In this document: one piece after another, positions 8,737-29,135 of the stretch
How the letters are laid out: the number at the start of each line of letters is the position of its first letter
Position numbering within the stretch: the stretch's first letter is position 1
Assembly (NCBI GenBank): GCA_903864435.1
Contig: CAIPFY010000181.1
Coordinates: 1 to 34,496, forward strand
Source: an uncultured Chloroflexota bacterium
GTDB taxonomy: Bacteria > Chloroflexota > Anaerolineae > Aggregatilineales > Phototrophicaceae
Length of the DNA stretch: 34,496 nt
Reading direction: 5' to 3'
Notes under the pieces: generated by a model
The model's database searches: none
The model's input: the letters and a program-made list of their open reading frames with translations, nothing else
What the model was told of the DNA's origin: nothing
Position numbers and translations under genes: made by a program

Positions 8737-8779
8737 TCAAGGTATTCTTTCGGTGCATTCGCTTTTCAAGGCGGTGAAC

Positions 8780-11059: not shown

Positions 11060-11068
11060 GAAGGACTT

Positions 11069-12532: not shown

Positions 12533-13799
12533 ACGGACTGCGGATGCGCCGACTCTTTCGTTAGGTGCGCTACTGGGGGATTTTCGCCTCCTGCTCCTGT
12601 TGTTTGTCGGGTTTCGTGTGCTGCTGCTGCTGGCCTACCAACCGCTGACCATCGGGAATGTGGAACGCGGGGTGAGCGCGGGCGGGGATTTTCAGACGTA
12701 CTACCAGATTGCGTCCCTTTCGGATACGGTAGGGCTGCCCCTGCGCGACTGGTGGAGTGAGTTCCCGCCGCTGTGGTCGTATACCTCGGTGACTCTGTAT
12801 CAGTTGGCGGGGCGCGGTGGGAACTATGCGGCGTTCGCGTTGTTGCTCGGCGCGATTCTGATCGCGGCGGATACGGGCAGCCTGATCCTTGTCCGCAAGA
12901 TCGGGACGCGCTTGTATCGTGCCGATACGGGAATGGCGCTGGCGTGGGTTTACGCGCTGCTGGCGGTGCCGCTGGTGTTCACATACTGGACGTTTGAAGG
13001 ACTGGTGACGTTTAGTCTGCTGTTGGGCGTGTGGTGGCTGCTGAATGAGCGCGATGGGCGGGCGGGCGCGGTGTTCGGGATCGGGGCGCTGCTCAAATTC
13101 ACACCTGCGCTGGCGCTAGGTGCGGCGTGGCGCTACCGTTCGGCGCGGCAGGCGGCGGGGACGACGGTCATTAGCCTGCTGATCTTCGGCGGCGTGTTCG
13201 CGCCGTTTTTGTTGCAAAACGCGGCGATGACTCTGCCCTCGCTCACCGCGCAGTGGAGTAAGGCTTCGTACCAGTCGGTGTGGGCGCTGCTAGACGGGAA
13301 CTATCGCACAGGCAACTTCGGCCCGCTGGAAGATCGCCTCGATCCGGCAAAAGCGGCGGTGCTGCTAGGCAATCCGGCGGTCATACCGGGCTGGTTACGG
13401 TTGGGGGCGGCGGCGGCGCTCGGCCTGTGGTTGTTTGCCCGCACGCGCCGTTATGATGACAAGGGGTTGGTGGCGTTTGTGGCGGCCACGCTGCTCATTT
13501 TCTTTTTGCAGGCACAGGGCTGGAGTCCCCAGTGGCTCATGCAAATCATTCCGTTCGTGTTGTTGTGCTTCCCGAACCGGAATGGCATCTTGATCCTGCT
13601 GGTTCTCAGCGGGGTAACGTTCACCGAGTATCCGTTCCTGTGGCTGCGTACTGGCGACAGCGGCGGGATGATGACGGGCGCACTGGTTGTTCCGTATGTG
13701 ATGCTGGTGCTGGCACGGACGGGACTGCTGGCGGGGGTGGTCGTGGGGCTGTATCGTATCCTCCGGCAACCGCGTGATCGGGATGGACGGGCGATTTAA
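12525..13799 (+). CDS. GT87/DUF2029-like membrane glycosyltransferase
   Basis: The open frame extends from 12432. The likely start is the ATG at 12525 (MAKRTADAP), which overlaps the preceding gene by eight bases and has GAGG upstream; this gives 424 residues. The first outer loop has GGDFQTYYQIA and a following EFPPLWSY, and a later helix pair contains LLKFTPALALGAAW. These are features of the GT87/DUF2029 mannosyltransferase-like group within GT-C. Ten or so membrane helices are expected and there is no soluble tail. It is the last gene of the 8780-13799 operon. The assignment to GT87-like is by motif resemblance; the substrate is not known. Confidence 0.72.
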   Translation: MAKRTADAPTLSLGALLGDFRLLLLLFVGFRVLLLLAYQPLTIGNVERGVSAGGDFQTYYQIASLSDTVGLPLRDWWSEFPPLWSYTSVTLYQLAGRGGNYAAFALLLGAILIAADTGSLILVRKIGTRLYRADTGMALAWVYALLAVPLVFTYWTFEGLVTFSLLLGVWWLLNERDGRAGAVFGIGALLKFTPALALGAAWRYRSARQAAGTTVISLLIFGGVFAPFLLQNAAMTLPSLTAQWSKASYQSVWALLDGNYRTGNFGPLEDRLDPAKAAVLLGNPAVIPGWLRLGAAAALGLWLFARTRRYDDKGLVAFVAATLLIFFLQAQGWSPQWLMQIIPFVLLCFPNRNGILILLVLSGVTFTEYPFLWLRTGDSGGMMTGALVVPYVMLVLARTGLLAGVVVGLYRILRQPRDRDGRAI

Positions 13800-13864: not shown

Positions 13865-14275
13865 ATGTCGCAAATGCGCCAAGAACTTGAACTTGCGCGA
13901 GAACTCATCGCGGAAAGGCAGTTTGAGAAAGCTCGACTGCTGTTGTTGAAAATCAAAGATGATCCTACCGCGCAAAACTGGCTGAAGAAGTTGGAGACAC
14001 TGGCTCCCGCTGCGGTAGCCGTGCTGGATACCACCACTTTTGAACCGTGGCAGTACATGGCGCTGGAAGTGAAGCGTTCTTACGGGATTCAGTACAAGGT
14101 GAACGGTGAAGCTAAACCGGAATGGAAAGATCAGCCGATTTATGTGCCGCTGAACGCGCTCGGTCGGGATGGCTGGGAGCTTATCAGCTTCGAGACGGCT
14201 TCCGAGTTTTCTCTGTATTTGCTCAAGCGCCCCGGCACGGGTGCGGTTCAGAAAGTGGATGTCTGGGATCAATAG
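13865..14275 (+). CDS. Small soluble protein with DUF4177-like C-terminus
   Basis: The 136-residue product has no membrane segment. Residues about 1-45 form a TPR-like helical pair (ELARELIAERQFEKARLLLLKI). Residues about 60-130 are a compact alpha-beta domain ending in NALGRDGWELISF and SLYLLKRP, reminiscent of DUF4177-like domains (L-x2-L-G-x2-G-W-E-L). No catalytic motif is evident. AGGAGA is well placed for ATG 13865; the TTG at 13862 in the ORF track is less likely. It is the only soluble protein inside the GT-C array, and the next membrane-protein gene overlaps its 3' end, so translation is likely coupled. The function is unknown; an accessory or regulatory role toward the membrane enzymes is a guess. 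Confidence 0.7.
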   Translation: MSQMRQELELARELIAERQFEKARLLLLKIKDDPTAQNWLKKLETLAPAAVAVLDTTTFEPWQYMALEVKRSYGIQYKVNGEAKPEWKDQPIYVPLNALGRDGWELISFETASEFSLYLLKRPGTGAVQKVDVWDQ

Positions 14276-15851
14276 CTTGGATACCCGGTTGAATACTGGT
14301 CGAACGCGCCAGATAGGACTGTTTGCGGCGGTGGCGGTTGCCGCCGCTTTTGTCATTGTCTATGGCATTGTGGCGGCGCCTTCGTTCACGGATGCGTTTT
14401 ATCATTTCAATGCTGCACAACGGTTGGTCAGCGGACAAGGGCTGACCGATCCGTACCTGTGGACGTACATCGGCGCACCGGATTCGCTGCCCGCCCCTTC
14501 GCATTTGTACTGGATGCCGCTGACCTCGCTGGTGAGTGCGCTCGGCATGGCAGTGTTGAACGCGCCGGGGAGTTACGCGGCGGCACAGCTGCCTCTGGCG
14601 CTGATGCTGGCGGGGACGGCAGGGGTGGGCTTCGGGTTGGGTGCGAAACTGGGCGGCGGTTGGCGAACGGCATGGATGGCCGGCCTGCTCACGCTTGCCA
14701 GCGGGTTTTACACGCGCTTCTGGGGCAGCACGGATACATTTGTGACCTACGCGCTGCCGGGTGCGTTGGGACTGCTGCTGCTCGGTATGCTCACCGACGG
14801 ACAGTGGCGGATACGGGTGGTGCTGGCGGCGGGGGTGTGTGCGGGTCTGGCGCATCTTGCTCGCGCCGATGGGCTTCTGGTGCTGATCGTGGGCGGCGCG
14901 GCGCTGCTGTGGCCGGTGGGCGGTCAGTGGCGCAACCGCATCGGGGTGGCGGCGCTGCTCACGCTGTTTTACGGCGCGACTATGCTGCCGTGGTTCGTGC
15001 GCAACCAGACGGTGATTGGCACGCCGATGCCGTTGGGCGGTACGCAGGCGATCTGGTTTACCGAATATGACGACCTGTTCAACTATCCGCCGGATTCGTC
15101 TCCGGCAGGCTTATTTGCAGAGGGCTTGAATACGTTTTTGGCTTCGCGCTGGGAAGCATTCAGCAACAATCTGGGGACGTTTGTGGCGGTGGAAGGGCTG
15201 ATCGTGATGACGCCGCTGATGCTGTTCGGCCTGTGGCGGCGGCGGCAGAATCCGTTCCTGCGCCCCTTTATCCTGTACGCGCTCGGCCTGCACCTTGCGA
15301 TGACGTTCGTGTTTCCGTTCCCCGGCTATCGCGGCGGCCTGCTGCACTCGGCGGCGGCGCTGGTTCCTTGGTGGGCGGCGTTGGGCGTGGTGGGGCTGGA
15401 TGACGCGCTGGCGTGGGCGGTGCGCCGCCGCCGCTGGAATAAGCGGTCGGCGACGGTGGTTTTTTCGGCGGCGCTGCTGGCGGTGGCGGTGTTTCTGAGT
15501 CTAACAACGGCGCTGCCCAACCGGGTGACGGCACATCCGCCACCTGCTATATACTCGCTGCTTCAGTCCAAATTGCCGCCGGATGCCCGTGTGATGCTGA
15601 ATGATCCAGCGGCGTTGTACTATTACACGGGGATGGGTGGCGTGGTGCTGCCCAATGAAGCCCCCGCTGTGATTGCGGACATTGCGCAGCGTTACGGTGT
15701 GCGCTACCTTTTGCTAGAGAATGTGACCGCAGATGGTCGCGCTTCGAGCGCGGCATCTCCTGCGCTGTGGCCGATTCTGACCGATCCGCCTGCGTTTTTA
15801 GTTCCGGTTCCGCTTGAGCGAACTGATGTGAGGTTGTATGAAATTCGATAA
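14259..15851 (+). CDS. Polytopic membrane protein, GT-C-like
   Basis: The open frame starts at 14169 but its first 30 codons lie within the preceding gene in another frame. I favour ATG 14259 (MSGINSL), a 17-base overlap; TTG 14277 is also possible. The product is about 530 residues. The first outer loop contains PSFTDAFYHFNAAQRLVSGQG and then APSHLYWMPLTSL, a pattern seen in GT-C/PMT-like proteins (quoted in parts). About ten to twelve membrane helices follow. A C-terminal soluble portion (LPPDARVMLNDPAALYYYTG, RYGVRYLLLENV) occupies the last ~100 residues. Its 3' end overlaps the next GT-C-like gene by 14 bases. Substrate unknown. Confidence 0.72.
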   Translation: MSGINSLDTRLNTGRTRQIGLFAAVAVAAAFVIVYGIVAAPSFTDAFYHFNAAQRLVSGQGLTDPYLWTYIGAPDSLPAPSHLYWMPLTSLVSALGMAVLNAPGSYAAAQLPLALMLAGTAGVGFGLGAKLGGGWRTAWMAGLLTLASGFYTRFWGSTDTFVTYALPGALGLLLLGMLTDGQWRIRVVLAAGVCAGLAHLARADGLLVLIVGGAALLWPVGGQWRNRIGVAALLTLFYGATMLPWFVRNQTVIGTPMPLGGTQAIWFTEYDDLFNYPPDSSPAGLFAEGLNTFLASRWEAFSNNLGTFVAVEGLIVMTPLMLFGLWRRRQNPFLRPFILYALGLHLAMTFVFPFPGYRGGLLHSAAALVPWWAALGVVGLDDALAWAVRRRRWNKRSATVVFSAALLAVAVFLSLTTALPNRVTAHPPPAIYSLLQSKLPPDARVMLNDPAALYYYTGMGGVVLPNEAPAVIADIAQRYGVRYLLLENVTADGRASSAASPALWPILTDPPAFLVPVPLERTDVRLYEIR

Positions 15852-17427
15852 GATTCCGCGCAAGTTGGAAATCGGGCTGCTGGTGCTGGCGGCGGCGCTG
15901 GTGTGGATTTATGCGCGTACTGCGCCCCCCGGATTTGCGCTGGATGATAGTTGGATTCATCAGGTTTACGGGCGTAATCTGGCGCAAACCGGCCAATGGG
16001 CGTTTTTGCCGGATGTTCCTAGCGCGGCTTCCACCTCGCCATTGTTCACGGTGCTGCTGTCGTTCGGCTATGTGGTCAATTTTCCGTATGCGCTATGGAC
16101 TCAACTACTAGGCATTGTGGCGCTGTGGGTGAACGGGGTGCTAGCGGTGCGCATCATGGCGCGGTTGGTACCCGGACGGCCTGCGCTGGCGGCGCTGACG
16201 GGCGCGGCGATGGTGCTGGCGTGGCACCTGATCTGGGCGGCAGCTTCCGGCATGGAAACGATGATGTTTACCATGTTCACCTCGCTCTTGCTGTTTCTGG
16301 CGCTGCGCGAAAGCGGCTTCCAACTGGGTAAAGCGCCGCTGAAGGTAGACCACTCGCGGCAGGCGCTTCTTCAGCGGGCGGTTTCGTTCGGGGCATGTGC
16401 CGGTTTAGCGGTGTTGGCGCGGCCTGAAGGTGCGGTGCTGACGGCGCTGATCGCCCTGTTTATCCTCGTGTTGCGCCCGCAGCGTTCGTGGACGGATTTC
16501 CTGTTCTGGTCAATGATCGCGCTGGCGACTTTCAGCATGGTACTCATGCCGTACCTGATGCTCAACTGGCAACTGACCGGCGGCCTGCTGCCGGATACAG
16601 CGGCGGCGAAACAGGCGCAACTGGCCTTTCGCATCGAGGGGATGACGCTGCTGGAACGGATATGGATGATGCTGTGGCCGCTGCTGGCAGGGGCGCAATT
16701 TTTGCTGGTTCCGGGTGTCTTTTATTACCTGTGGACGATCATCCCCCGTTTGCGTGTGGATCGTTATGTGGCATGGGCGCTGCTGCCGCTGACCTTCACG
16801 GCGGTGCAGATTGTGCTGTATGCGGCGCGTCTGCCTTCGCCCATTCAACATGCGCGGTATGTGATTCCGGCACTGCCCTCGATTATCATTTGCGGTATTC
16901 TAGGGACGGTGTGGCTGGTCGAACGGGGACGGCGGCAGTTTGCGACACGGGTGCTGACGCGCACGTTGATGATTTCGGCGGCACTGGGGTTTTTCGTGTT
17001 CGGGTTGTGGGTTGGCCCGAATGAGTTTCGCAAAGATGTGAGCGCGATTAATGAGGAAATGGTGGCCTCCGCGCACTGGATTGACCAGAACATCCCCCGT
17101 GACCAACTGCTGGCAACGCATGACATCGGCGCGATCGGGTTCTTCACGCCGCGCCCGCTGGTGGATGTCGCCGGATTGATTTCGCCCGAAGTGGTGCCCT
17201 TTATTGATGATGGCGAACGGCTGTGGGCCTATTTGCAGCAGCGCGGCGTTCAGTATTTGATGGCGCTGCCCGATCAGGTGCCGGGAGATGACATCACCGA
17301 CAAGCGGTTGTGCCCGATCTATTCGACGGGCGGTGCAACCGCCCAATCAATCGGTTATCCGAACATGACGGTTTACAAACTGGTGTGGGATCGTGTGTGT
17401 ACGCCTGCCGCGCCGGGGTCAGGCTAA
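15838..17427 (+). CDS. Polytopic membrane protein, GT-C-like
   Basis: The 529-residue product has an N-terminal helix, then PPGFALDDSWIHQVYGRNLA (DD near residues 37-38) and a following PSAASTSPLFTVLL. This D-D-S-W-I-H loop marks a recognisable GT-C-like family. About ten membrane segments are followed by a C-terminal soluble domain (about residues 400-529) with ASAHWIDQNIPRDQLLATHD and GAIGFFTPRPLVDVAGL. GTGAGG precedes the ATG. The 14-base overlap with the upstream gene indicates coupling; it is the last gene of the 13865-17427 unit. The sugar and acceptor are not predictable. Confidence 0.75.
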   Translation: MKFDKIPRKLEIGLLVLAAALVWIYARTAPPGFALDDSWIHQVYGRNLAQTGQWAFLPDVPSAASTSPLFTVLLSFGYVVNFPYALWTQLLGIVALWVNGVLAVRIMARLVPGRPALAALTGAAMVLAWHLIWAAASGMETMMFTMFTSLLLFLALRESGFQLGKAPLKVDHSRQALLQRAVSFGACAGLAVLARPEGAVLTALIALFILVLRPQRSWTDFLFWSMIALATFSMVLMPYLMLNWQLTGGLLPDTAAAKQAQLAFRIEGMTLLERIWMMLWPLLAGAQFLLVPGVFYYLWTIIPRLRVDRYVAWALLPLTFTAVQIVLYAARLPSPIQHARYVIPALPSIIICGILGTVWLVERGRRQFATRVLTRTLMISAALGFFVFGLWVGPNEFRKDVSAINEEMVASAHWIDQNIPRDQLLATHDIGAIGFFTPRPLVDVAGLISPEVVPFIDDGERLWAYLQQRGVQYLMALPDQVPGDDITDKRLCPIYSTGGATAQSIGYPNMTVYKLVWDRVCTPAAPGSG

Positions 17428-17497: not shown

Positions 17498-18145
17498 ATG
17501 AACGACCTATTCAAAAAACTCAACGTCTTGATGAAAGCCAAACTCAATGATGTGCTGGAGGCGGGCGCGTCGTCACGCGAACGTCCTAGTACGTTGAAGC
17601 TAGGGCCGGATGTCGAACGCGAAATCGGCCACCTGCGAGCGCGTATCGAGGATGCGCTGCGGTTTGAGGACGAACTGGTGAAGCGCACACAGGATTTACA
17701 GGCCGAGATTGACCGCTGGGACACACAGGCCGATCAAGCGGTAGCCGCCGGGGATGACGCTTCTGCCCGTTATGCCGTCGAGCAGATGCAGCGTTCGCAG
17801 CGCAGTCTGGGGCTGGCGGAAGCTGATTTGCGCGAACACCGCACCGTGACGCAGGAATTGATTTTGCGGGTGAACATGCTGGATGCGGCAGTCGCAGATG
17901 CCCGCCGCGCTCAGGCAGAGAAAGCGCCTGCGCCTGCGCCAGCACAGGAACCCGCCGACGACCATTCGATGATCGTCTCCCGCACTAAGGTGCTGTCGGA
18001 GTCGCTGCGGGACATCCGCGAACAAGCGGCACAGGCGGCCGCGCCGACCCCGGCTTCAGCCGTCCCCGAACCGCCTGCACCGGATCGTGCAGCAGTTGAA
18101 GATGATCTGGAGCGCCGCTTGAAGCGGTTGCGTAAACCTGAGTAA
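17498..18145 (+). CDS. PspA/IM30-family-like coiled-coil protein
   Basis: The 215-residue product starts MNDLFKKLNVLMKAKLNDVLE, like the amphipathic membrane-binding N-terminus of PspA/IM30. It continues as a long coiled coil (about residues 35-145) with the family-typical WDTQADQAVAAGDDASARYA. PspA proteins bind stressed membranes and form ESCRT-III-like scaffolds. Residues about 148-195 are Ala/Pro-rich and low-complexity, and the last residues are charged (DDLERRLKRLRK). It lies directly before the histidine kinase gene (one base between stop and GTG, four to the ATG), which suggests a membrane-stress operon. Similarity is moderate and based on composition and a few motifs, so another coiled-coil family is possible. 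Confidence 0.65.
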   Translation: MNDLFKKLNVLMKAKLNDVLEAGASSRERPSTLKLGPDVEREIGHLRARIEDALRFEDELVKRTQDLQAEIDRWDTQADQAVAAGDDASARYAVEQMQRSQRSLGLAEADLREHRTVTQELILRVNMLDAAVADARRAQAEKAPAPAPAQEPADDHSMIVSRTKVLSESLRDIREQAAQAAAPTPASAVPEPPAPDRAAVEDDLERRLKRLRKPE

Positions 18146-18149
18146 TGTG

Positions 18150-20759
18150 ATGACCGAAACTGTTTCCTCCTCCCGCCGTGCCTTGATCGTTGCCAATGAT
18201 TTTGATGTGGTTATGCGCGTTCGGCAGGCGGTTGGGGGCGGTTCGGTGGCCTTGCAAACGGCATATAGCCATCAGGATGCTTTGTACGCGGCACAGAATA
18301 CGGAATTCGACGTTGTTTTTGTGCCTGCTGGAATGCAATCCCGCGAGACGGGTGAAGCGACGCCGCTGGCGCTGGCACAGCAAAAGCCCGATATTCCCAT
18401 CATCATGCTCAAGTCCGAGTATGATCCGTCCCCCAAGAATTTGCTCAGCAATGTTCATGTGACGACGCTGGCAGAAGCTGAGATTGCGCAGACTCTAGCG
18501 ACTGTCCTGCGGTTGAGTACGCGCAGTTTGCAACCGGCTGAGGGCAGCGCATCCGAGGAGTCCGACCCGACGCCAGCGGAGGAAATCGGGGCGTTGCTCA
18601 ATTTGAGCCGTTCACTGGCGGAAGTGCTGGATACCAGTGAAGTGCTGAACCGGATTGTGGAAGCAGCGCGGCGGTTGACCCACGCGGAAGAAGGGATGAT
18701 CCTGCTGCCGGATGAAGAAGGCGGGCAGTTGTTTTTGCGGGCGCGGGTGGGCATTGATATCGAAATCGCCCGCAACTTCCGGGTGAAGACCGAAGATACG
18801 CTGGCCGGACGGGTGTATGCCAGCGGACAGCCGTTATTGCTCGGTGGTCAGGGGCCGCAAAAGGTCAAAACCGAGTACCTTGTGAATGCACTGCTGTACG
18901 TTCCCATCCTGTATAAAGGTCAGTGTATGGGCGTGTTGGGGGTGAACAACAAGCAGTCGGACGAGGTGTTCAGTGCGCGGCATAAGGAGCTGCTTCAGAA
19001 CTTGGCCTCGTTTGCGGCTATCGCGCTGGAAAATGCGCGTTCGCACGAGGAGACAGTGGAACGTACCCGCGAATTGCAGACGCTAGTGGAAGCCAGTCAG
19101 GTCTTAAACACGTCGCTGACTCTGGGAACCACGCCTACCGCGATTTGCGACCAGTTAGTCCGGGTGGGCGATGTCAATCTGGTCGAAATATACGACTGGG
19201 ATCAGTACGGGGAACGGTTGCGGTTGCTGGCTCGCAGCATTCGCACGTTATGGCCGGCGGGGCAGGGGCCAGTGATCGAGCTGAAGGCACGCCCTCTGAT
19301 TAATCGCGCTGTGTTGAGTGGTCGCCCGGTTCGGATGTGGCGCGATGACGACGAACTGGATGCGAAGGAAGCGGTGGCGCTCAACCGGGCTGGTTTGATG
19401 GCGATCACGGTACTGCCTATTCGTGGCGGAGATCAACCGGTAGGGGCTGTTCTACTGTGTTTTGTGGATGAACCGCGCCACGCCCCCACGACTGAGACGT
19501 ATGCCCGTATTCAGCAGATGACGCTGGAACTGCTGGTTTCCATGCCCGACACCAGCGGGACGCGCTCATCGCCGCCGCTGCGGGTGCTGGAGGAAATGAA
19601 TCGGCTGACCGGGGCGGATTGGTGCGAGGTGGCGCTGCTGTCACCGGATCAGCAGTTGCTTAATGTGCAGCTTGCTGCGGGGAAAGCGGTTTGGATGGAT
19701 GCCCCCCAACCGGTTCTTGATTTGAGGCAAGCGGCTGATCTGGTGGAGGCCATGCGGTCTGGCAGACCCATCACCCGCCACATGGACACGCAGTTAATCA
19801 CCCCCAGCATTCGCGCTCTGTTGGAGAGGACGAACAGCCAAACGGTACTGGGGCTGCCCATGATGCAGCGCGGTCAACCGCAGGGGCTGGTGCTGTTCGG
19901 GGATGCCCGGCGCGGGCGTGTCTTCACCGCACGGGATATTGATCTGGGACGTGCGATTGTCAGTCAGGCGGCTACGGCGCTGGAAAATGCGCGTCTATTT
20001 TACCATCTGGAGCGCAGTCTGGCGGATTTGAAACAGGCGCAAGAACGACTGGTGCAAACGGCGCGGCTTTCGGCGATGGGCGAACTGGCGGCGGCGGTGG
20101 CGCACCAGATTAATAATCCGCTGACAACGATTATGGTGGATTCGGAGATGCTGTTGCTCGATGTGGAAGCGACATCTCCGATGTATAAATCGTTGCAATC
20201 TATCCACCGCGCCGGAAAACGTGCTTCTGGTGTGGCGCGGCGTTTGCTGGCGATTTCGCGGCCTAGCGATCCCGAGTCTCCCCCGGCGCGTATTGATGTG
20301 GTTGATACTATTGATGGGGTACTATCGCTGGTAAAATCACACATCGAACGCGATCATATTCGCCTGATCTGGAATCCGCCAACCGAGCCTTTGCCCCCTG
20401 TCTGGGCTGTGCCGGGGCAACTGGATGATATTTGGCTCAACCTGCTGATGAATGCGCATGATGCGCTTGCTGGTAGGCCGGATGCCCGCATTGGGATTGC
20501 CGTGAAATGTGCAGAGGAAGGCCCGTTGATGGTACGAATATGGGACAATGGCCCCGGAATACCTAACGGGATCATTGAGGAAATCTTTAAACCATTTTTT
20601 ACAACAAAACCCGTAGGCGAAGGAACTGGCTTGGGGTTGCACATTTGCCGACAGACCGCTGAACGGGTGAGCGGCAGCATTAACGTTAAGAGCGACCCGC
20701 AGGTAGGTACTGAATTTATTGTTCAACTTCCGGTCAAGCGAGGAAGGACTGACGTATGA
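18150..20759 (+). CDS. Hybrid-type sensor histidine kinase: pseudo-receiver, three GAF-type regions, kinase core
   Basis: The roughly 870-residue product has a receiver-like N-terminus (about residues 10-125) whose phosphoacceptor position is Pro (FDVVFVPAGM), so it cannot be phosphorylated normally. A clear GAF domain (about 150-300), a second GAF-like region (about 310-455) and a third, weaker one (about 465-610) follow. The kinase core has HisKA with AHQINNPLTT (His near 652), an N-box (DDIWLNLLMNAHDAL), a G1 box (WDNGPGIP) and a G2 box (GEGTGLGLHICRQ). No membrane segment is apparent, so it is probably cytoplasmic and senses a small molecule, redox state or protein. GTG 18147 is an alternative start. 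Its last codons overlap the response regulator gene by ATGA, so the two are very likely a cognate pair. Confidence 0.9.
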   Translation: MTETVSSSRRALIVANDFDVVMRVRQAVGGGSVALQTAYSHQDALYAAQNTEFDVVFVPAGMQSRETGEATPLALAQQKPDIPIIMLKSEYDPSPKNLLSNVHVTTLAEAEIAQTLATVLRLSTRSLQPAEGSASEESDPTPAEEIGALLNLSRSLAEVLDTSEVLNRIVEAARRLTHAEEGMILLPDEEGGQLFLRARVGIDIEIARNFRVKTEDTLAGRVYASGQPLLLGGQGPQKVKTEYLVNALLYVPILYKGQCMGVLGVNNKQSDEVFSARHKELLQNLASFAAIALENARSHEETVERTRELQTLVEASQVLNTSLTLGTTPTAICDQLVRVGDVNLVEIYDWDQYGERLRLLARSIRTLWPAGQGPVIELKARPLINRAVLSGRPVRMWRDDDELDAKEAVALNRAGLMAITVLPIRGGDQPVGAVLLCFVDEPRHAPTTETYARIQQMTLELLVSMPDTSGTRSSPPLRVLEEMNRLTGADWCEVALLSPDQQLLNVQLAAGKAVWMDAPQPVLDLRQAADLVEAMRSGRPITRHMDTQLITPSIRALLERTNSQTVLGLPMMQRGQPQGLVLFGDARRGRVFTARDIDLGRAIVSQAATALENARLFYHLERSLADLKQAQERLVQTARLSAMGELAAAVAHQINNPLTTIMVDSEMLLLDVEATSPMYKSLQSIHRAGKRASGVARRLLAISRPSDPESPPARIDVVDTIDGVLSLVKSHIERDHIRLIWNPPTEPLPPVWAVPGQLDDIWLNLLMNAHDALAGRPDARIGIAVKCAEEGPLMVRIWDNGPGIPNGIIEEIFKPFFTTKPVGEGTGLGLHICRQTAERVSGSINVKSDPQVGTEFIVQLPVKRGRTDV

Positions 20760-21442
20760 CATATATTCTAGCAGTGGATGATGACCCGGAAGTACTCGAT
20801 ACGCTGGGGCGCGTGTTGGCGCGTGAATCGTTCGATGTCGGGCTGGCAAAATCGGCAGCCGAGGCGCTTGAAATGCTGGATTTGCGCCATCCAGATGCGA
20901 TGATTCTGGACATCATCATGCCGGGTGTAGACGGTATTACCCTGTGCCGCAACTTGCGGCAGGATTCACGTTTTGCGGCGCTGCCCATTTTGTTCCTGAC
21001 TGCCAAAGGCTCGACTGATGATGTGGTGGATGGACTGGATGCAGGCGCGGATGATTATGTGGTGAAGCCGTTTGAACTGGCGGAACTGCGCGCCCGCATT
21101 TATGCGCTCTTGCGGCGCAGCAATCGTGAAACGCCGTCGGGTTCGGTGCTTGAATTAGATGACCTGCGCCTCGATTCCGATACCTATCAGGTGTGGATAC
21201 AAGGTCGCCAGATTCAACTGACATCCACCGAACATCGGCTGCTGCGCTACCTGATGGAAAACCCGAATCGGGCGCTTTCCCCCGCGCACCTTTTGCAGGC
21301 TGTCTGGGACTATCCGCCGGATACGGGTGATCCTGATCTGGTACGGGCGCATGTACGAAACCTGCGCGCCAAGCTGGAAAAGGACACGGATCGCCGCTAC
21401 ATTCGCACGATTCATGGCGTGGGCTATATGATTTCGAACTAA
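20756..21442 (+). CDS. OmpR/PhoB-family response regulator
   Basis: The 228-residue product has an intact receiver: acidic triad VDDDPE at residues 7-12, phosphoacceptor Asp52 (MILDIIMPG), switch Thr in FLTAKG and conserved Lys in VVKPFE. A winged-helix trans_reg_C effector (about residues 130-228) follows, with LTSTEHRLLRYLMENPNRAL and RAHVRNLRAKLE plus the terminal YIRTIHGVGYMI hairpin. It should be phosphorylated by the kinase encoded just upstream (ATGA overlap) and then bind tandem DNA half-sites. Targets are not evident; the PspA-like gene in the same operon and the tad-like genes downstream are candidates. Confidence 0.93.
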   Translation: MTYILAVDDDPEVLDTLGRVLARESFDVGLAKSAAEALEMLDLRHPDAMILDIIMPGVDGITLCRNLRQDSRFAALPILFLTAKGSTDDVVDGLDAGADDYVVKPFELAELRARIYALLRRSNRETPSGSVLELDDLRLDSDTYQVWIQGRQIQLTSTEHRLLRYLMENPNRALSPAHLLQAVWDYPPDTGDPDLVRAHVRNLRAKLEKDTDRRYIRTIHGVGYMISN

Positions 21443-21488: not shown

Positions 21489-21555
21489 TCCTAAAACCCC
21501 CTTAAATTCATGAAATATTCAGGTTGTTTCCTGTAACACCCGCGTAGGTTCAGTC

Positions 21556-21561
21556 TATACT
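21556..21561 (+). promoter_or_regulatory. -10 element (TATACT) upstream of the Asp-less regulator
   Basis: TATACT lies 44 bases before the ATG at 21605, in the same form as the -10 box of the zinc-ribbon operon. The -35 position (about TGTAAC) is a weak match. The presence of a separate promoter suggests this regulator is transcribed apart from the kinase/regulator pair. Confidence 0.4.
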
Positions 21562-21604
21562 AGAAGCACTTGTGTTGTATCAGTTCGTAGGATTGGTGCT
21601 TTCT

Positions 21605-22324
21605 ATGTATAGACTGCTGATTGTAGATGACGATACAGAAATTGTAGAAGTCATTATACATTTTCTGCAACGCGAAGGTTACGAAGTCGTTAATGTTCCT
21701 TCGTCAAAAGCGGCGCTGGCATGGCTCGCGATGGAGTCGCCGGATTTGTTTTTGCTCAGCACTTCCCTGCCTGAAATGGATGGGCTGGCGCTGTGCCGCC
21801 AACTTCGTGACGACCATCGTTTTATGGCGATCCCCATTTTGTTCATGACGGGACACCCCGGTTATCATGCGGCGTCGGAGGCGCTCGAAGCCGGCGGCGA
21901 TGATTACATTCGCAAGCCGTTCGCCCCCCGCGAGTTGGTGGCACGCATCCGGGCGCATTTGCGGCGCTATTCGGGCGTCAACCGCGACCCGCTACCCATT
22001 CTGCGGTTGCAGCCCGATACGATGACCATTTGTGTGAATGAACGCAGCGTCCCGCTGACTCATGTGGAATTTGATCTGATGATGTACCTGTGCGGGCGTC
22101 CGCATTATCTCCATTCCACACAGGATTTGCTGTCGGATGTGTGGCAGTATCCGATGGGGGCAGGGGATGGAGCGCTGGTTCGGAACCATATTCGGAACCT
22201 GCGGCGCAAACTGGAATTAGACCCTGACCGACCGGCGATTATTCAATCCCGTCACGGGCGGGGCTATTCGGTGCGGGCGCGGGTGCTGGTGGAAGACTCG
22301 CACCGCGCTGTTGCCAGTTGTTAA
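21605..22324 (+). CDS. Atypical OmpR-family response regulator lacking the phosphoacceptor Asp
   Basis: The open frame begins at GTG 21572, but ATG 21605 (MYRLLIVDDD) fits the family start; this gives 239 residues. The receiver keeps the acidic pocket (VDDDTE), Thr in FMTGHPG and Lys in IRKPFA. The residue aligned with the phosphorylated Asp is Ser52 (codon AGC) in LFLLSTSLPEMDG. The winged-helix effector is complete (LTHVEFDLMMYLCG, RNHIRNLRRKLE, HGRGYSV). Such atypical regulators are usually phosphorylation-independent or ligand-controlled. No kinase gene is adjacent. A strong hairpin follows, then the tad-like genes, which are plausible targets. Confidence 0.9.
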   Translation: MYRLLIVDDDTEIVEVIIHFLQREGYEVVNVPSSKAALAWLAMESPDLFLLSTSLPEMDGLALCRQLRDDHRFMAIPILFMTGHPGYHAASEALEAGGDDYIRKPFAPRELVARIRAHLRRYSGVNRDPLPILRLQPDTMTICVNERSVPLTHVEFDLMMYLCGRPHYLHSTQDLLSDVWQYPMGAGDGALVRNHIRNLRRKLELDPDRPAIIQSRHGRGYSVRARVLVEDSHRAVASC

Positions 22325-22328
22325 GCTG

Positions 22329-22361
22329 AACGGCCTGTTTCTCACACAAGGACAGGCCGTT
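22329..22361 (+). terminator. Strong hairpin, likely terminator of the atypical regulator gene
   Basis: A perfect ten-base stem (AACGGCCTGT / ACAGGCCGTT) with a 13-base loop begins five bases after the stop codon. Only TTTG follows, so the T-tract is weak. The right arm can also pair with AAACGGCC at 22425-22432, which gives an alternative fold. Confidence 0.65.
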
Positions 22362-22451
22362 TGTGATGCCATTACCCCCTGTAGAACATCGCGCATCGTT
22401 TGAATCTGCCGTTCATGCAACCGCAAACGGCCTTCTTCGCAGGCTATTTTG

Positions 22452-22480
22452 CTGACAAAACCCTATCATTTTCTTATCAC
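22452..22480 (+). promoter_or_regulatory. Candidate promoter for the tad-like genes
   Basis: CTGACA (22452-22457) and TATCAC (22475-22480) are 17 bases apart, giving a fair -35 and a weak -10. Another possible -10 (TATCAT, 22512-22517) lies closer to the gene but has no recognisable -35. The rest of the 248-base gap holds the terminator hairpin and short AACGGC inverted repeats. Confidence 0.3.
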
Positions 22481-22572
22481 AACCCGAAGATGCCGCGCCT
22501 AAACGTTGTGGTATCATGAAATTGCCGTTGATGGATTAAACGGCGTCAAACATTGACCATGAGGGACGTGCG

Positions 22573-23715
22573 ATGCGTAAGCTAGGACAGCAGATCTTAC
22601 AAATCCTCGATGGCACTCCCGCCGTGTACGGGACACCTGCACGCGGTCAAAGCGTTGTGGAGCTGGCACTCGTTACGCCAATTTTAATCGTCTTGTTGAT
22701 GGGGTTGGCGGAGATTGGCTGGTTTGCCAACAACTACCTGATTTTGCTGGAAACGACCCGCGTCGGCGCACGGTTTGGTACTGTGCAGACGGGCGATACG
22801 AGTCCGCTGGAATGGAATAATCAGGCCAGCCCGTCGCCCGATGCTTTCGCGTTGTCTCCCGATCAAGACTTCCTTGCGCGGCGTTTCCGTTCCTGCGAAG
22901 AAGTGCGTCAGTTTGCCGAGATTCAGGGCTTTTACAACCTGCTGACGTGCGTGATGCTGCAATCTATGGCGCCGCTTACACTGCGCGGCCCCGGTGATCC
23001 CCAGTTGGATGCCACAACCCCGAATGTGGACGACATTGTAATTTCCGGTTTATCGTTCCAACTTGTAGACCCCAGCCATACCATCTGGAGCAAAACCTTC
23101 CAGTACGGGGCGCAGCAGGGGCGCACCTATCTTTCGCCATCGCTGATGACGGGGCTACCTTCAACGTCTGCGCAGGTGCTGGTAGTGGGGCGGTACCCGA
23201 CCAACGCCAACGAATGCACGGTGAACACGGACGGTAGTTACCGCGTTTGGGAACGTGACCCCTTCGATTATATTCAGGATGGGGGCCGCGATTGGTGGGT
23301 GGCTACCGGTTTTGCGGATGTAGAAGCGAACCGCAACTATCTGGAGTTGGAAGGTGCGGATACGTCAACGGCTGGTAATGCGACCTCATGGGAACGCCAG
23401 CGCGGGTTCTCGTGGACAGGGCAGCACACCATCACCGAGACAAACGGGCGCTGTGTGGGTTCGGAATGGTCTACTGATGAAGTCCAAGCCCTGATGAATC
23501 TGCCGAGTTTCAGCCTGACCACCACCAACAATCAGCAGCGCGGACGGTTGCCCAGTCAGGGAATGGTGCTGGTCGAAATGTTCTGGCGGCATGAACTGCT
23601 GTTGAAGAACCCGGTATTTAATCCTGTGTTCACGATACTCGGCCCCAACACGGTCATTAGTGTGTGGGCCGCGTTCCCGGTTCCGGCCATTGAGCCGCGA
23701 ATTCGTTACGAATAG
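22573..23715 (+). CDS. TadE-family pseudopilin-like secreted protein
   Basis: The 380-residue product has a short basic leader, then RGQSVVELALVTPILIVLLM and a further hydrophobic run, the TadE signature. The G/Q junction with Glu at +5 fits type IV prepilin-peptidase processing. TadE proteins are minor pseudopilins of tight-adherence (Flp) pili. The extracellular part (about 330 residues) is much longer than a typical TadE of about 150-200 and contains several Cys and aromatic residues; I do not recognise a known domain there. GAGGGA precedes the ATG. It is followed after 15 bases by the TadG-like gene and by a second TadE gene, so the three form an operon. Confidence 0.82.
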   Translation: MRKLGQQILQILDGTPAVYGTPARGQSVVELALVTPILIVLLMGLAEIGWFANNYLILLETTRVGARFGTVQTGDTSPLEWNNQASPSPDAFALSPDQDFLARRFRSCEEVRQFAEIQGFYNLLTCVMLQSMAPLTLRGPGDPQLDATTPNVDDIVISGLSFQLVDPSHTIWSKTFQYGAQQGRTYLSPSLMTGLPSTSAQVLVVGRYPTNANECTVNTDGSYRVWERDPFDYIQDGGRDWWVATGFADVEANRNYLELEGADTSTAGNATSWERQRGFSWTGQHTITETNGRCVGSEWSTDEVQALMNLPSFSLTTTNNQQRGRLPSQGMVLVEMFWRHELLLKNPVFNPVFTILGPNTVISVWAAFPVPAIEPRIRYE

Positions 23716-23730
23716 GAATAAGGAGACACG

Positions 23731-26673
23731 ATGAAGCAGCGTCTCTTCACTAGCACAATGAATCGTCTGGTTCGGCGGGGCGCACCCGGCCAGACCATTG
23801 TCATCATGGCTATCGCGTTCATCGTCTTGCTTGCGTTTGTGGGCATTGTGACGGATGTTTCGCTGTTGTTCGTGCGCTATAGCACGCTGCGCCGTGCAGT
23901 GGATGCGGCGGCGGTGTCGGCTGCCGGACAGATTCGCCGCACGGTTGCCAATTCGACGGAACTGGCAAGCGCGGCTACACAGGGTGGAACACAGGAGCAG
24001 ATTGAAGCGCGTGCGGCGGGCTATGCCTATGCACGTAATGTTGCTACTGTGAACCTTGCTGCGCGTCAGTTCATCGAGTTCTACGGGCTGAGTCCGACGA
24101 ATGTGCTGGTGAACGATTGCGCCACGATGCCGGCATTGGATGCCGCGACTCTGGATAATCCGGCCTATCAAACCCGTTCCGACGTGGTGTTGTATAACGA
24201 GCTGGAGTGCGATTACCGCTTGCAACCGCGTAAACTGGTGAAGGTTACGGCGCAGGTGGATTCGCCAACGGTGTTCCTGCGGCTGATCGGCTGGGGGAAT
24301 GTTCGTCTGGAAGCCTCCGCGATTTCGGAAACCGCCGTGATTGATGTGGTGATGATCTTCGACGCTTCCGAATCGATGCTCAATCAGACTACTTACAATG
24401 ACTGGGAAAAAGTGCCGTCGCCTGTGCCGGGTAGCACCACGCTGGAAGTGGATACCGTCAACACGATCAACTGGGGGATGCGCTATTCGATCCCGCGTAT
24501 GGATACCGGCACGGGCGCGATTTCGCCGCAATATTACAATGCCGCCGACCCAACGGGCGACTTGTATTACTACTCGCGGGCATGGACAACCTTCTTGAGC
24601 AAGACCAACCCGCAAATCGTGGGCGAAGGCCGCACGAACGGCACGATCAACCCCGCTTCTTTTGATGCGAAGGTGGTGGTGCGCCCCTACATTGTGGATG
24701 CCGGCAATAATGCCACCGTGTCCACCTTTTCAGACTCGCGCAATCCCCGCACAGAATGCCGCGTCCGCTTCTATCCGGCAGGGCAGGCCATCCCGATGTC
24801 GAACGGGACGGGCGATTATGTCGTGACTGATGATGTGTATCAGGAACAGACGGCTATTCTGGGGACAGCGCCGACGATTGCGCCTAGCGGTTCGACCGGC
24901 ACATGGCAACCCTACTACGATGGCTTTGTCCCTGCTTATAACTACTTCGGCTGCTGCAACGATCCGAATGGCGACCAGAACTTTGACGATCTCATTTGCC
25001 AGCCATTCCGACAGGTGCGTAACTCTGCTGAGGCTTTCCTCGACCGTATTGATTTCAATCGCGGCGACCGTGTGGCGTTCGTGACGTTTGACCGTGATGC
25101 GTTTCTTGTTGACCCGGATGGTTCGGCTGGCTCGGAAGTCCACATGATTACCCGTCAGGACGTGGCGCTGAAGGCGTTGCGACAGATCGTGGGTGTGCGT
25201 GCGGAGCCGAACTTCTACGCCGATACCAATAACAATGGTCAGTGGGATGGGTTTGTGGTGGGCGGTGCGCCTTTCAATGCCAGCGACCCCACTAACAGCG
25301 GCAAGGTCTACAGCTACCGCTATAACCAGAATGCCGGCAGCACGGAATACAATTTCGCAACCAGCCAGTACACCACCCCCGGCGGGTTTGATGGACGCGC
25401 CATCCAGAACCTAACCGATTATCCGATCAAGGATAACTGCTTCTGGACAACCGCGATGTTGCCGTGGCCGTTGAGCATCTACAGCTCACCCGCCAATGAA
25501 ACCGCGAACGGCGCAGAACCCAACTACATTCCATTTGGCGATCAGACGGCGGCGCGGTTGGGGCTGCGCGTGGCTTCACGTTACCCGAACCCGCTGGCCG
25601 CGCAGGGTGTGACCACCACCCTGATGCACCCTAACCTGAATGACCCTTCGTGGGAAGCCTTGATGACTTTCCCGCAGGCCTCCAAGCAGGGTAATAAGCC
25701 TCGTTTCGCCTATGAAGTGGCGGGGGGGTGTCGTGGCTCGAACGTGGGTTCGGCGCTGCGGCAGGCCAATAACGCGCTGCTTGACCCGGATACCGTGCGC
25801 GTGAATGGCGCGGTGTGGGTGATGGTGATGCTGGGTGATGGCGCGGCGGCAGGCAGCGATCCGGTGCGGCGCGGCGGTGCGAATGGCACTCTCTCGCGCG
25901 CCAATCCGTATTCCAGCACGAACGCCCCCCCGGTTTCTGGCGATTACGGCTCGTATGGGCTTTGCCCGTATGGTCTGCCGACGGCGACCGGCATGGGCGA
26001 ATTGGTGGGCGGCGGCGGCACATGGGAATCGCGTCCGCCGCGTTGTATGGATGAGTTTCCAGTCAGCCGCCATTTCTGCTTTAACCCGTATGACAATCAG
26101 GACAGCGCGGGTGCCGTCTATATTGATCTGAATGACTCTGAAGAATGCCAGAACCAGTATGATGTGGATGATTTTGCCCGCGACTGGGCGGATTTCATCG
26201 GCCTGAGCGACCCGTTCCCGGCGCTGAGTGTGGCAGACCCCGGTCGTAACGCGCTGCAACTGCCGACGATTTTCACTATCGGTTTCGGTCTGGATTTCCA
26301 GCAGGGCGATGGCAGCTGCACCGCCAATATCAACGACTGCTTAGGCGAGGAATTGCTGCGTTACATCGCCGATGTGGGCGACAACAACCGCCTCGATACG
26401 GATTATCAGCAGGATTATAAAGGCACGCCTTCGGTGGATAAGAATCTGGCGGCAGGCGACTCGTATGGTTCACGTGGCCCGTGCGAAGGGGTTGTGCTGG
26501 GCGGGTATGCAGATGCCGAAGCTATTCCGGCCTCGCAAATCGAGACGCTGCTCATTAATCCTTTGCCACCTAAACAGAACTGCGGCAACTATTTTAATGC
26601 GCCAGATGCTGCTAAGTTGGACAGCGTGTTCAACGAAATCGCCTCGCGCATGTTTACACGTCTGACCCGCTAG
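23731..26673 (+). CDS. TadG-like protein with an interrupted VWA domain
   Basis: The 980-residue product begins with a TadE/G-type membrane anchor (APGQTIVIMAIAFIVLLAFV) that lacks the pilin Glu at +5. The post-anchor region (TLRRAVDAAAVSAAGQIRR) is typical of TadG-like proteins. A VWA fold starts with VVMIFDASESM, whose DxSxS metal-ion site is D211-S213-S215. The next VWA helix and strand (NSAEAFLDRIDFNRGDRVAFVTF) appear only around residue 425, so an insert of about 200 residues interrupts the domain. Later elements are GSNVGSALRQANNALL, VWVMVMLGDG and TIFTIGFG. Acidic loops resembling calcium-binding motifs occur (DPNGDQNFDDL, DTNNNGQWDG), and there are many Cys. AAGGAG precedes the ATG. 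It is probably an extracellular metal-dependent adhesin anchored in the membrane. Confidence 0.82.
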   Translation: MKQRLFTSTMNRLVRRGAPGQTIVIMAIAFIVLLAFVGIVTDVSLLFVRYSTLRRAVDAAAVSAAGQIRRTVANSTELASAATQGGTQEQIEARAAGYAYARNVATVNLAARQFIEFYGLSPTNVLVNDCATMPALDAATLDNPAYQTRSDVVLYNELECDYRLQPRKLVKVTAQVDSPTVFLRLIGWGNVRLEASAISETAVIDVVMIFDASESMLNQTTYNDWEKVPSPVPGSTTLEVDTVNTINWGMRYSIPRMDTGTGAISPQYYNAADPTGDLYYYSRAWTTFLSKTNPQIVGEGRTNGTINPASFDAKVVVRPYIVDAGNNATVSTFSDSRNPRTECRVRFYPAGQAIPMSNGTGDYVVTDDVYQEQTAILGTAPTIAPSGSTGTWQPYYDGFVPAYNYFGCCNDPNGDQNFDDLICQPFRQVRNSAEAFLDRIDFNRGDRVAFVTFDRDAFLVDPDGSAGSEVHMITRQDVALKALRQIVGVRAEPNFYADTNNNGQWDGFVVGGAPFNASDPTNSGKVYSYRYNQNAGSTEYNFATSQYTTPGGFDGRAIQNLTDYPIKDNCFWTTAMLPWPLSIYSSPANETANGAEPNYIPFGDQTAARLGLRVASRYPNPLAAQGVTTTLMHPNLNDPSWEALMTFPQASKQGNKPRFAYEVAGGCRGSNVGSALRQANNALLDPDTVRVNGAVWVMVMLGDGAAAGSDPVRRGGANGTLSRANPYSSTNAPPVSGDYGSYGLCPYGLPTATGMGELVGGGGTWESRPPRCMDEFPVSRHFCFNPYDNQDSAGAVYIDLNDSEECQNQYDVDDFARDWADFIGLSDPFPALSVADPGRNALQLPTIFTIGFGLDFQQGDGSCTANINDCLGEELLRYIADVGDNNRLDTDYQQDYKGTPSVDKNLAAGDSYGSRGPCEGVVLGGYADAEAIPASQIETLLINPLPPKQNCGNYFNAPDAAKLDSVFNEIASRMFTRLTR

Positions 26674-26691
26674 GGAGAGAGAGGGGTGCCG

Positions 26692-27639
26692 ATGAGCATT
26701 CATCAACCTGCCGAATTGTCGGCACGAGGGCGAAAAGGCCAAACACTGGCTGAATTTGCCCTGACTTTGCCAGTCCTGTTAATCCTGATGTTCGGGGTGA
26801 TCGAGTTTGGTCGCGTGTTTCAGGCGTGGGTGACGCTTCAGAATGCGGCTCGTGCGGCGGCGCGTTATGCCAGCACCGGCATGTATGATGAAAACACGTT
26901 TACCATGAACTTGAACCTGAACTCAGCCACACCTGCCGATTCCACCGGATTAATCCCGTGTGTGAACGATGGGAATCAACCCGGCTACGACTTCGCCAAT
27001 AATGGCGATTCGGTGCAAGACCCTGACCAACGTGGCACCAAAACATTGTACGATCCCCCCGGTCTGGATATGGGGGCGATCGAGGTTTACAACGGCGGCT
27101 TGGAAAGCCTGTTTGCCACATGGAACGACGGGGCGAACTGCGATCCGTTCAATGCCGATCATCAGGAAATGCGGCGCGATATGGCGCGTATCCTGTCAAT
27201 CATGCTGGAAGCGCAGCGCGGTTCGGCGGGTCTGTCAATTCAGCCGTTCCAATTCAACCTCAGCGGTGATAAGGCGCAGGTTGTCAGCGGCAACTGGCCG
27301 TGGTTCCGCGTGTGGCAGGTTCCTGACCCGAATATCAATCAGCGGTCGTATTTTGATGTGTCCATCTGTAGTTCCCGTCGGCTTACTAACAGCAGCAATT
27401 CGACGTACTACAGCATTTCTGGGCAGCAGCAGGATACGCGCTTTATCACCTATCAGGGCGACACCACGCTGGTGACGCCGAACAATCTGGCGTTGGACGG
27501 TGGTTCCACGCCGCCGCTGCCTGTGCCCGGTTGTTTGTTGAATGAAGTGCAGGCGGCGAGTGATACACAGGCCACCCATAAGGCGGCAAGCCCTGGTCTG
27601 ATCCGGGTGGGCCAGCCGATACGGTGTATGTCACAGTGA
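26692..27639 (+). CDS. TadE-family protein, N-terminal part of a frameshifted gene
   Basis: The N-terminus reads RKGQTLAEFALTLPVLLILM followed by FGVIEFGRVFQAWVTLQNAA, a classic TadE anchor with Glu at +5 after the G/Q junction. The start is ATG 26692 with GAGGGG upstream; GTG 26686 is the ORF-track start. The extracellular part continues to residue ~305, after which the frame runs into IRCMSQ and a stop. At the same place the overlapping frame begins DTVYVTVTFNHPLITPL, which reads as the natural continuation of a TadE C-terminus. A missing single base near 27616 (CCGAT for CCGGAT, for example) would restore one protein of about 815 residues. Whether this is a mutation or a sequencing error cannot be told here. 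Confidence 0.78.
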   Translation: MSIHQPAELSARGRKGQTLAEFALTLPVLLILMFGVIEFGRVFQAWVTLQNAARAAARYASTGMYDENTFTMNLNLNSATPADSTGLIPCVNDGNQPGYDFANNGDSVQDPDQRGTKTLYDPPGLDMGAIEVYNGGLESLFATWNDGANCDPFNADHQEMRRDMARILSIMLEAQRGSAGLSIQPFQFNLSGDKAQVVSGNWPWFRVWQVPDPNINQRSYFDVSICSSRRLTNSSNSTYYSISGQQQDTRFITYQGDTTLVTPNNLALDGGSTPPLPVPGCLLNEVQAASDTQATHKAASPGLIRVGQPIRCMSQ

Positions 27640-29135
27640 CGTTCAACCACCCGTTGATTACGCCGCTGCCGCTGCCGACCAATTACATTCGCATTCAGGC
27701 ACGCCGCAGCGCCATCGTCGAATCCTTCCGTGCGGCAGACCCGCGCAGCGCGTTGGCGGGCGGTTCGGCCATTGACCAGTTGATCCAGACCAATACACCC
27801 ACAGCGACCAGTTCACCGACGGTGACGGCCAGCGCAACGGGTACTTCGACGGCGACCGCAACCTTTACCCCCACGGCGTCATGGACTCCGCTGCCGCCGT
27901 TTAGCTGCGATCTGATTACCGCGAACGGCTTTACGGTCAATGGCGGTCAGATTATGGCGGATCTGCATAATGGGAACGCTGACTCGACCTTCCTGATGCG
28001 GGTCGTCGTGAAATGGCCGACCATTCTGGACTATCCGCAGATGTCGCTGTTCGAGATGTCGTTGAATGGTGTGGCACACTGGCGTGGCCGCGCCCTGTCG
28101 GATATCAACTCTGCCACTAACACGACAGATACGAGTGCCGGTCTATCCACGCCGATGAACTTCTTTATCGGCACCTCTGAATCGGATCGTACTGTGGCTT
28201 CGCAGGAAACGGCGCTGTGGGCATCTACGTTCAGCAGCGGCCCCGCGCAGATTCAAGAGTATACAAGCATCAACGACTACGGCGGGACGACCTTCTACTT
28301 CTACAACCCGCTTCAGCCGTCCACACCCTGTCAGGTGACTCTGTATCTGCCGACGCCGACGCCGCGCCCGACGGTCAATGCTCGCACGCCCAGCCCGACG
28401 CCGACTGCGACGCCATCCTGCGCATCGAACCAGATCAGCATTCGCTTCGCTGGCTATCAGAGTTTCGGTATCGCACGCTTTGAAATCACAAGCACCCGTC
28501 AGGCGGTGGCGCCTATCACCAACTTCACTATCAACTGGTCGCAACTGGCTGCCGGGGTGCTGACGTTGGATCGGGTGTCCGCTGTGGCGCCGTTCGGACA
28601 GCCCAACAGCGTGACCATCTGGCAGGCGAGTAGTTTGACCCAAGATGCGACGCCTTCTACTATCGGTCGTTCTGAAGGAACATGGGTGCAGAACTACACC
28701 ATTGACCCGGCACGCCCCGGCAACCCCACTGTGGTTTCGATCTATGTGGATTTCGGCGGGGTGGGCGGCTACCTGACGGATATTGGTTATGCAGCAGGTG
28801 GCGCGAATTTCAATGGAACGATATTCCGCATTAGCTGTGGTACGCAGACGACCGGCGGAACCGGTGGCGGGACATGGTATGGCGGTGAAGGCGACATCAC
28901 GATGGCGAATAACCCGACGCCTGCGCCGACAGCCACAAGAGGGCCGACCAATACGCCTGCGCCGACGCTGACACCTTCCAAGACAAACACGCCCTCTCCG
29001 CCGACCAAGACGCCGACGATTGGGCCGTCGAACACGCCTAAACCGGCGACGAATACGCCGACGGCCACCAAGCCGCCGACCCCGATTCCGCCGCCCACAC
29101 TGCCGGGTGGTGGGTGTATTGACAACTGCGGTTAG
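27582..29135 (+). pseudogene. C-terminal part of the frameshifted TadE protein: Thr/Pro-rich secreted region
   Basis: The frame is open from 27582. The ORF track places a GTG start at 27624 (503 residues), but no ribosome-binding site precedes it and its first residues (YVTVTFNHPLITPL, RRSAIVESFR) belong to a TadE C-terminus. The part encoded here lacks a signal sequence, so it would be secreted only as part of the upstream protein. Three Thr/Pro-rich linkers (TPTATSSPTVTASATGTSTA, PTPTPRPTVNARTPSPTPTA and the last ~65 residues) separate two beta-rich stretches of about 150 residues each. I do not recognise these domains. There is no sorting signal or C-terminal membrane segment; the end is Gly/Cys-containing (GGGCIDNCG). 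The linkers could carry O-glycans or span the cell wall. Confidence 0.65.
28911..29103 (+). repeat. Degenerate codon-level repeat encoding a Thr/Pro tail
   Basis: The DNA is a run of CCG/CCN and ACG/ACN codons (such as ACGCCTGCGCCGACA), giving NPTPAPTATRGPTNTPAPTL-like peptide. It is an imperfect low-complexity repeat within the coding sequence, with no conserved spacer or unit length, and is a likely place for assembly or replication slippage. Confidence 0.6.

Follow-up and report, generated by a model that had tools for sequence, protein, structure and literature searches.

An OmpR/PhoB-type response regulator without a phosphoacceptor aspartate, encoded beside an intact two-component system and tad-like genes in the Chloroflexota

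RRa, an OmpR/PhoB-type response regulator encoded by an uncultured member of the Chloroflexota, carries serine where the phosphoacceptor aspartate of its receiver domain is expected, and the phosphorylation pocket was broken in all 16 orthologues found in its genus. It is a real, well-supported aspartate-less regulator and, on sequence comparison, most likely works without ordinary phosphorylation beside a normal regulator, RRc, that has kept its aspartate. RRa is ordinary in kind, such receivers making up a few percent of all; its series of orthologues and a pair of predicted promoters are unusually informative. The features lie in a stretch of 34,496 nucleotides, here termed the window, which is a whole contig (C181); their coordinates are listed in Table 1.

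Table 1. Coordinates in the window of the genes and predicted regulatory features around RRa
Feature	Coordinates	Strand	Description
PspA/IM30-like gene	17498..18145	+	Head of the HK-RRc operon; Pfam match below curated cut-off
HK	18147..20759	+	GAF-GAF-HisKA-HATPase histidine kinase
RRc	20756..21442	+	Canonical OmpR/PhoB-type response regulator
Predicted regulator site upstream of RRa	21507..21523	+	Direct repeat TTCATG-N5-TTCAGG, 11-bp period
Predicted −10 box, RRa promoter	21556..21561	+	TATACT
RRa	21605..22324	+	OmpR/PhoB-type response regulator, aspartate-less receiver, Ser52
Hairpin after RRa stop	22328..22362	+	Probable terminator; AACGGCCTGT...ACAGGCCGTT
Predicted tad promoter site	22455..22479	+	ACAAAACC-CTATCA-TTTTC-TTATCA, 11-bp-period direct repeat
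Predicted extended −10 box, tad promoter	22509..22517	+	TGG-TATCAT; footprint consensus TGG-TATSAT
TadE-like protein	22573..23715	+	PF07811
TadG-like protein	23731..26673	+	PF13400
Second TadE-like protein	26686..27639	+	PF07811
Conserved tad-cluster protein	27624..29135	+	No Pfam or NCBIfam match

The RRa reading frame encodes 239 amino acids, and codon 52 is AGC (21758-21760), within the motif DLFLLSTSLPEMDG; the corresponding aspartate column of the orthologue alignment holds this serine. Pieces of the protein read, in order, MYRLLIVDDDTEIVEV...PDLFLLSTSLPEMDGL...ILFMTGHPG...GGDDYIRKPFAPRELVARIRAHLRR...LVRNHIRNLRRKLE...QSRHGRGYSVR. A first-pass annotation of the window had reported serine at the phosphoacceptor position of an OmpR-type regulator, and its reading frame, coordinates, codon, and motif were all reproduced. 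Pfam identified an intact Response_reg domain (PF00072; 3.4e-27) followed by a winged-helix Trans_reg_C domain (PF00486; 2.3e-16), both over the curated cut-offs, bearing out the earlier statement that the DNA-binding domain is intact. A recognized receiver without the phosphoacceptor aspartate is termed aspartate-less (PMC4395418), and one without key residues for phosphotransfer (DD, D, T, K) is a pseudo-receiver (PMC12632262). As read from its residues, RRa is by definition both an aspartate-less receiver protein and a pseudo-receiver response regulator of the OmpR/PhoB class: the aspartate is absent, and D8, D9, D10, T82, Y101, and K104 are all kept. The best named NCBIfam family was MtrA, at 168 bits against a cut-off of 300, and none of the named families among those shown reached its cut-off. 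The AlphaFold model (mean pLDDT, 88.7; pTM, 0.57, leaving domain orientation uncertain) and a PDB fold search confirmed the predicted fold as an ordinary two-domain OmpR-type one and are silent on whether the protein is active or inactive. The closest solved sequences and folds were those of MtrA (2gwr) and RpaA (9dvt), which, like PhoB, have the phosphoacceptor aspartate that RRa does not. A GTG start at 21572, proposed by the ORF finder as an extension of the frame, was rejected; ATG 21605 lines up with the orthologues, and the GTG is disfavored because the predicted −10 box would leave it next to no leader.

Within the genus, position 52 was occupied by Ser (AGC or AGT) in 6 of the 16 orthologues (G000, G005, G006, G007, G013, and G016), by Asn in 4 (G001, G008, G009, and G014), and by Asp in the remaining 6 (G003, G004, G010, G011, G012, and G015), all with a pocket altered elsewhere. 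In this Asp52 subclade, position 9 is Asn or Thr and one residue is deleted in strand β4, before the switch Thr. Position 82 is Asn or Met in eight copies and Thr in the other eight, K104 is present in every copy, and each of the 16 lacks at least one key residue. The earlier description of a kept acidic pocket holds for the window species, which has D8, D9, T82, and K104, and fails for most of its relatives. Nor was Ser52 conserved when the orthologues were aligned, a check that the first-pass annotation had proposed, and a Ser-specific mechanism is therefore unlikely; as the alignment reads, the conserved feature of the genus is the loss of a working pocket, not Ser52 itself. A scan of genome contigs returned distant regulators only and no RRa orthologue; the orthologues came from a search across genomes, which gave no RRa match in one genus member (G002; 85% complete, 1,140 contigs).

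Outside the genus, all 33 RRa orthologues carry Asp52, and in 28 of them the full set of five key residues is present; the five exceptions (G023, G038, G051, G079, and G083) have lost other pocket residues. The annotation had regarded aspartate in orthologues as evidence against its reading. Aspartate does occur, both across the wider family and within one genus subclade, yet the pocket is canonical in none of the genus members. Since shared descent makes the 21 sequences dependent on one another, pocket loss was counted in lineages instead, giving at least five (the genus, G023, G079, G038 with G051, and G083). The genus forms one clade in both the HK plus RRc tree and the RRa tree. Judged by eye on the tree, two histories within the genus come out almost equally short: an Asn52 root followed by changes to Ser and reversion to Asp, or a series of separate losses. 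In the five exceptions (loci L109, L113, L112, L108, and L098, respectively), the DD pair, Thr, or Lys was lost on separate branches, and these losses outside the genus always hit the RRa slot and never the RRc slot.

Of the 54 other receiver domains of the window genome whose pocket could be read, 2 have no phosphoacceptor aspartate, and a third (L128; EGDAQ at D8/D9/D52/T82/K104) lacks pocket residues other than the aspartate. The genome's own rate of aspartate-less receivers is close to the published background of about 4 to 6%, the published rates being about 4% for aspartate-less receivers and 6 to 13% for pseudo-receivers (PMC4395418; PMC12632262). Compared with these rates, the genus orthologues of RRa stand out, with an abnormal pocket in 16 of 16. 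That the AGC codon arose from faulty assembly or sequencing is so improbable as to be negligible: the assembly is a draft of 464 contigs, but GAC to AGC takes two base changes, and Ser or Asn was found at this position in the assemblies of nine other species of the genus. Judged by these orthologues, Ser52 is confirmed as neither chance nor error, with Ser in five other species, Asn in four, and other losses in six.

The genus-wide loss of the pocket agrees with the earlier expectation that RRa should not be switched by ordinary aspartate phosphorylation. RRa could nevertheless still be phosphorylated in part, at another acidic residue or at Asp52 in the subclade that retains it, with the pocket changes only tuning kinetics. 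We consider this improbable; K104 in every copy, T82 in half of them, and Asp52 in six would allow it, but the window species has no aspartate at the acceptor site, and the Asp52 subclade combines Asn or Thr at position 9, a residue that binds metal directly in canonical receivers (PMC12632262), with the β4 deletion. A similarly low probability was assigned to an altered pocket that senses another input, whether a ligand, redox state, or phosphorylation of Ser52 itself. In six species, Ser52 could serve as a modification site, and there are aspartate-less receivers that respond to different inputs, such as the redox sensor RitR (PMC5965902). However, the pocket residue varies among Ser, Asn, and Asp with differing partner changes, unlike one conserved binding or modification site, and no Cys was found among the genus-invariant residues of RRa. 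A regulator that is constitutive or controlled by its expression, or one that is a partner of RRc, fits the orthologue series better than a Ser-specific mechanism.

For genus pairs with dS below 1, dN/dS was 0.05 to 0.15 in the RRa receiver and 0 to 0.09 in its DNA-binding domain, which points to a receiver still constrained by purifying selection after losing its pocket and not freely decaying. Mean identity within the genus was 58% for the receiver and 78% for the DNA-binding domain of RRa, and 83% and 92%, respectively, for those of RRc; RRa has therefore evolved faster than RRc in both domains. This faster divergence and a pocket that decayed in several ways would suit a relic heading for loss, an outcome that is very improbable given that all 16 genus frames are open, dN/dS is well below 1 in both domains, and both the DNA-binding domain and the promoter are conserved. 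Residues invariant in the genus include A93, L94, G97, D99, D100, E110, A113, R114, R116, R120, and R121, which we take from family knowledge to lie on the α4-β5-α5 dimer face, the interface of ChxR/HP1043-like regulators. The DNA-contact residues L191 to H195, R197, N198, and R200 and S215 to Y221, in the recognition helix and wing, are likewise invariant.

RRc ends 162 bp upstream of RRa on the same strand, and its pocket (D8, D9, D52, T82, and K104) was intact in every readable orthologue (44 rows, four of them partial). In HK, the phosphoacceptor His653 of the H-box and the N-box were kept in all 14 genus copies read. The two-component system is therefore intact, with pocket loss confined to the second regulator slot. 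The HK and RRc genes overlap by 4 bp, whereas RRa has its own 162-bp leader with a conserved predicted promoter. By inspection, the recognition helices of the two regulators are nearly identical (LVRNHIRNLRRK in RRa and LVRAHVRNLRAK in RRc), and their wing residues differ (SRHGRGY and TIHGVGY, respectively).

Gene order was read from tblastn searches of 49 fetched loci with the window proteins as queries. The order PspA-HK-RRc-RRa-TadE-TadG-TadE, followed by the conserved gene at 27624-29135, was shared across the family and with further families of the order, and with it the position of RRa next to a canonical regulator and a tad-like operon, as first annotated. In five genomes (G017, G018, G019, G023, and G033), RRa was found without tad genes in the stretch read, and tad may therefore not be its sole target. 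TadE, TadG, and TadE were found among the window genes scanned, and TadA/B/C or a prepilin was not recognized there. A literature search on Tad pili with response regulators in Chloroflexi returned nothing.

Phylogenetic footprinting identified two predicted promoter sites, one upstream of RRa (footprint consensus TTCAYR-N5-TTCA) and one upstream of the first TadE gene (footprint consensus ACAAAACYCTATCANNTTCTTATCA). In both promoters, the half-sites, which are unequal, begin 49 and 38 bp before the −10 box, a position typical for activators touching RNA polymerase from upstream. Direct repeats with an 11-bp period are the form recognized by tandem dimers of the PhoB/PhoP type, and the sites resemble Pho boxes in this respect. 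The identical spacing from repeat to −10 box was kept through the genus and was recognizable in the family. Two fixed patterns were used to search whole genomes. The RRa pattern with its −10 box matched once in the window genome and zero to two times per genome in the genus, with one match in 17 genomes for its control; the tad pattern, with two mismatches allowed, matched once in the window genome. The leader of the HK-RRc operon carries no such repeat. Between RRa and tad, the hairpin (−19.4 kcal/mol; z score, −3.1) is a probable transcription terminator separating the two units, read from a fold in which a long T tract is absent and which the terminator scan did not flag. In one genus member (L053, on G001:C159), an insertion of about 7 kb separates RRa from TadE, and the second repeat remained at the tad end of the insert. 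By reading only, this insert seems to encode a GntR-like regulator, parts of a sugar ABC transporter, a dehydrogenase, and an aldo/keto reductase.

The working that we propose is a cascade. RRa would be a pseudo-receiver transcription factor of the OmpR/PhoB type, descended from a canonical regulator that still occupies the same locus in related genera. HK would phosphorylate the intact neighbor RRc, and RRc-P would bind the 11-bp direct repeat at about −58/−47 of the RRa promoter and raise the synthesis of RRa. RRa would then dimerize through its kept α4-β5-α5 face without a phosphoryl group, be active when made, and set tad expression by binding, by itself or jointly with RRc, the repeat at the matching position in the tad promoter. 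We give the whole cascade, with synthesis of RRa set by HK and RRc-P and its action on the tad promoter, an even chance; the parts that we infer are the assignment of each repeat to its regulator, an activating rather than a repressing effect, and constitutive activity. Counted in its favor were the pocket loss throughout the genus, the intact RRc, the low dN/dS, the invariant faces, the gene order, the matching repeats, the near uniqueness of the strict site patterns in each genome, the repeat that stayed with tad in G001, and the HK-RRc leader without one. A precedent exists in CmrRST, where the canonical regulator activates the operon encoding its pseudo-receiver partner (PMC12548384; PMC12632262). 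Against it, the repeats also occur in relatives with a canonical RRa and therefore do not by themselves show phosphorylation-independent action, the six Asp52 members of the genus might still be weakly phosphorylated, and the faster evolution of RRa could mean a narrowed role.

The main rival to the cascade is that RRa serves chiefly as a heterodimer partner, RRc-P pairing with the phosphorylation-blind RRa on the two half-sites as a coincidence or buffering device. This would be compatible with the nearly identical recognition helices and the unequal half-sites, with the invariant dimer-face residues, and with two genes that stay adjacent across the family and order, and such pairs are formed by BldM/WhiI and CmrR/CmrT (PMC4125116, PMC12548384). 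We nonetheless judge it rather unlikely; response regulator heterodimers are uncommon (PMC12548384), the wing residues of RRa and RRc differ, and RRa has its own predicted promoter and evolves faster than RRc.

The closest characterized layout to the one found here is CmrRST of Clostridioides difficile, in which a kinase and canonical and aspartate-less OmpR-type regulators are likewise encoded together, both homo- and heterodimers were detected, and CmrR is an activator of the operon that carries the CmrT gene (PMC12548384). The likeness is one of layout only. CmrT carries a phosphomimetic Glu53 and a DGD motif, while the genus RRa proteins carry Ser52, Asn52, or Asn/Thr at position 9, which are not phosphomimetic; the CmrR site is an inverted repeat and those here are direct repeats; and RRa, unlike CmrT, is preceded by a predicted promoter of its own and lies next to a putative target operon. 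ChxR of Chlamydia and HP1043 of Helicobacter share with RRa the OmpR/PhoB architecture and an altered phosphoacceptor pocket, and both work without phosphorylation (PMC3960148, PMC8345958). HP1043, however, is an orphan with a highly degenerate receiver, whereas RRa has retained D8, D9, T, Y, and K and is a neighbor of both a kinase and a canonical regulator. RitR of Streptococcus pneumoniae also has an aspartate-less receiver on an OmpR-type DNA-binding domain, and, unlike the Cys-free invariant set of RRa, is a redox sensor (PMC5965902). Structures of RitR were among the structural matches of the RRa model (5u8m and 5vfa). BldM and WhiI of Streptomyces belong to a different DNA-binding family than RRa, and their genes are not co-transcribed, whereas here the possible partner RRc is canonical and adjacent. 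They are atypical response regulators, one of which functions as a homodimer and also pairs with the other as a heterodimer (PMC4125116).

A 2025 review described the switching of pseudo-receivers on and off as a mystery (PMC12632262). At the locus studied here, gene position and promoter geometry stay the same, and RRa itself is canonical in sister genera and a pseudo-receiver throughout one genus, where the pocket was lost in three ways: Ser52, Asn52, or Asn/Thr at position 9 with the β4 deletion. Swaps of orthologues at one promoter could ask what phosphorylation contributed and what replaced it. Tentatively, it is possible that the second regulator slot has repeatedly turned into a phosphorylation-blind partner that shares the 11-bp half-sites of RRc and sets the gain of one two-component system that is otherwise normal, the locus recording the route from canonical to pseudo-receiver under unchanged promoter geometry.

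Three genes without a Pfam or NCBIfam family (14169-15851, 15838-17427, and 27624-29135) travel with the PspA-HK-RRc-RRa-tad locus in most relatives. In L054 (G008), the pair formed by the second TadE gene and the 27624-like gene occurs twice in tandem (8214-13084). Elsewhere in the window, 4454-7117 encodes an 887-amino-acid HEAT-repeat protein whose NACHT-like match is weak and falls short of the curated cut-off, and the end of the contig (34326-34496) holds the start of another receiver-domain gene, whose product is 42% identical to RRa over 57 amino acids.
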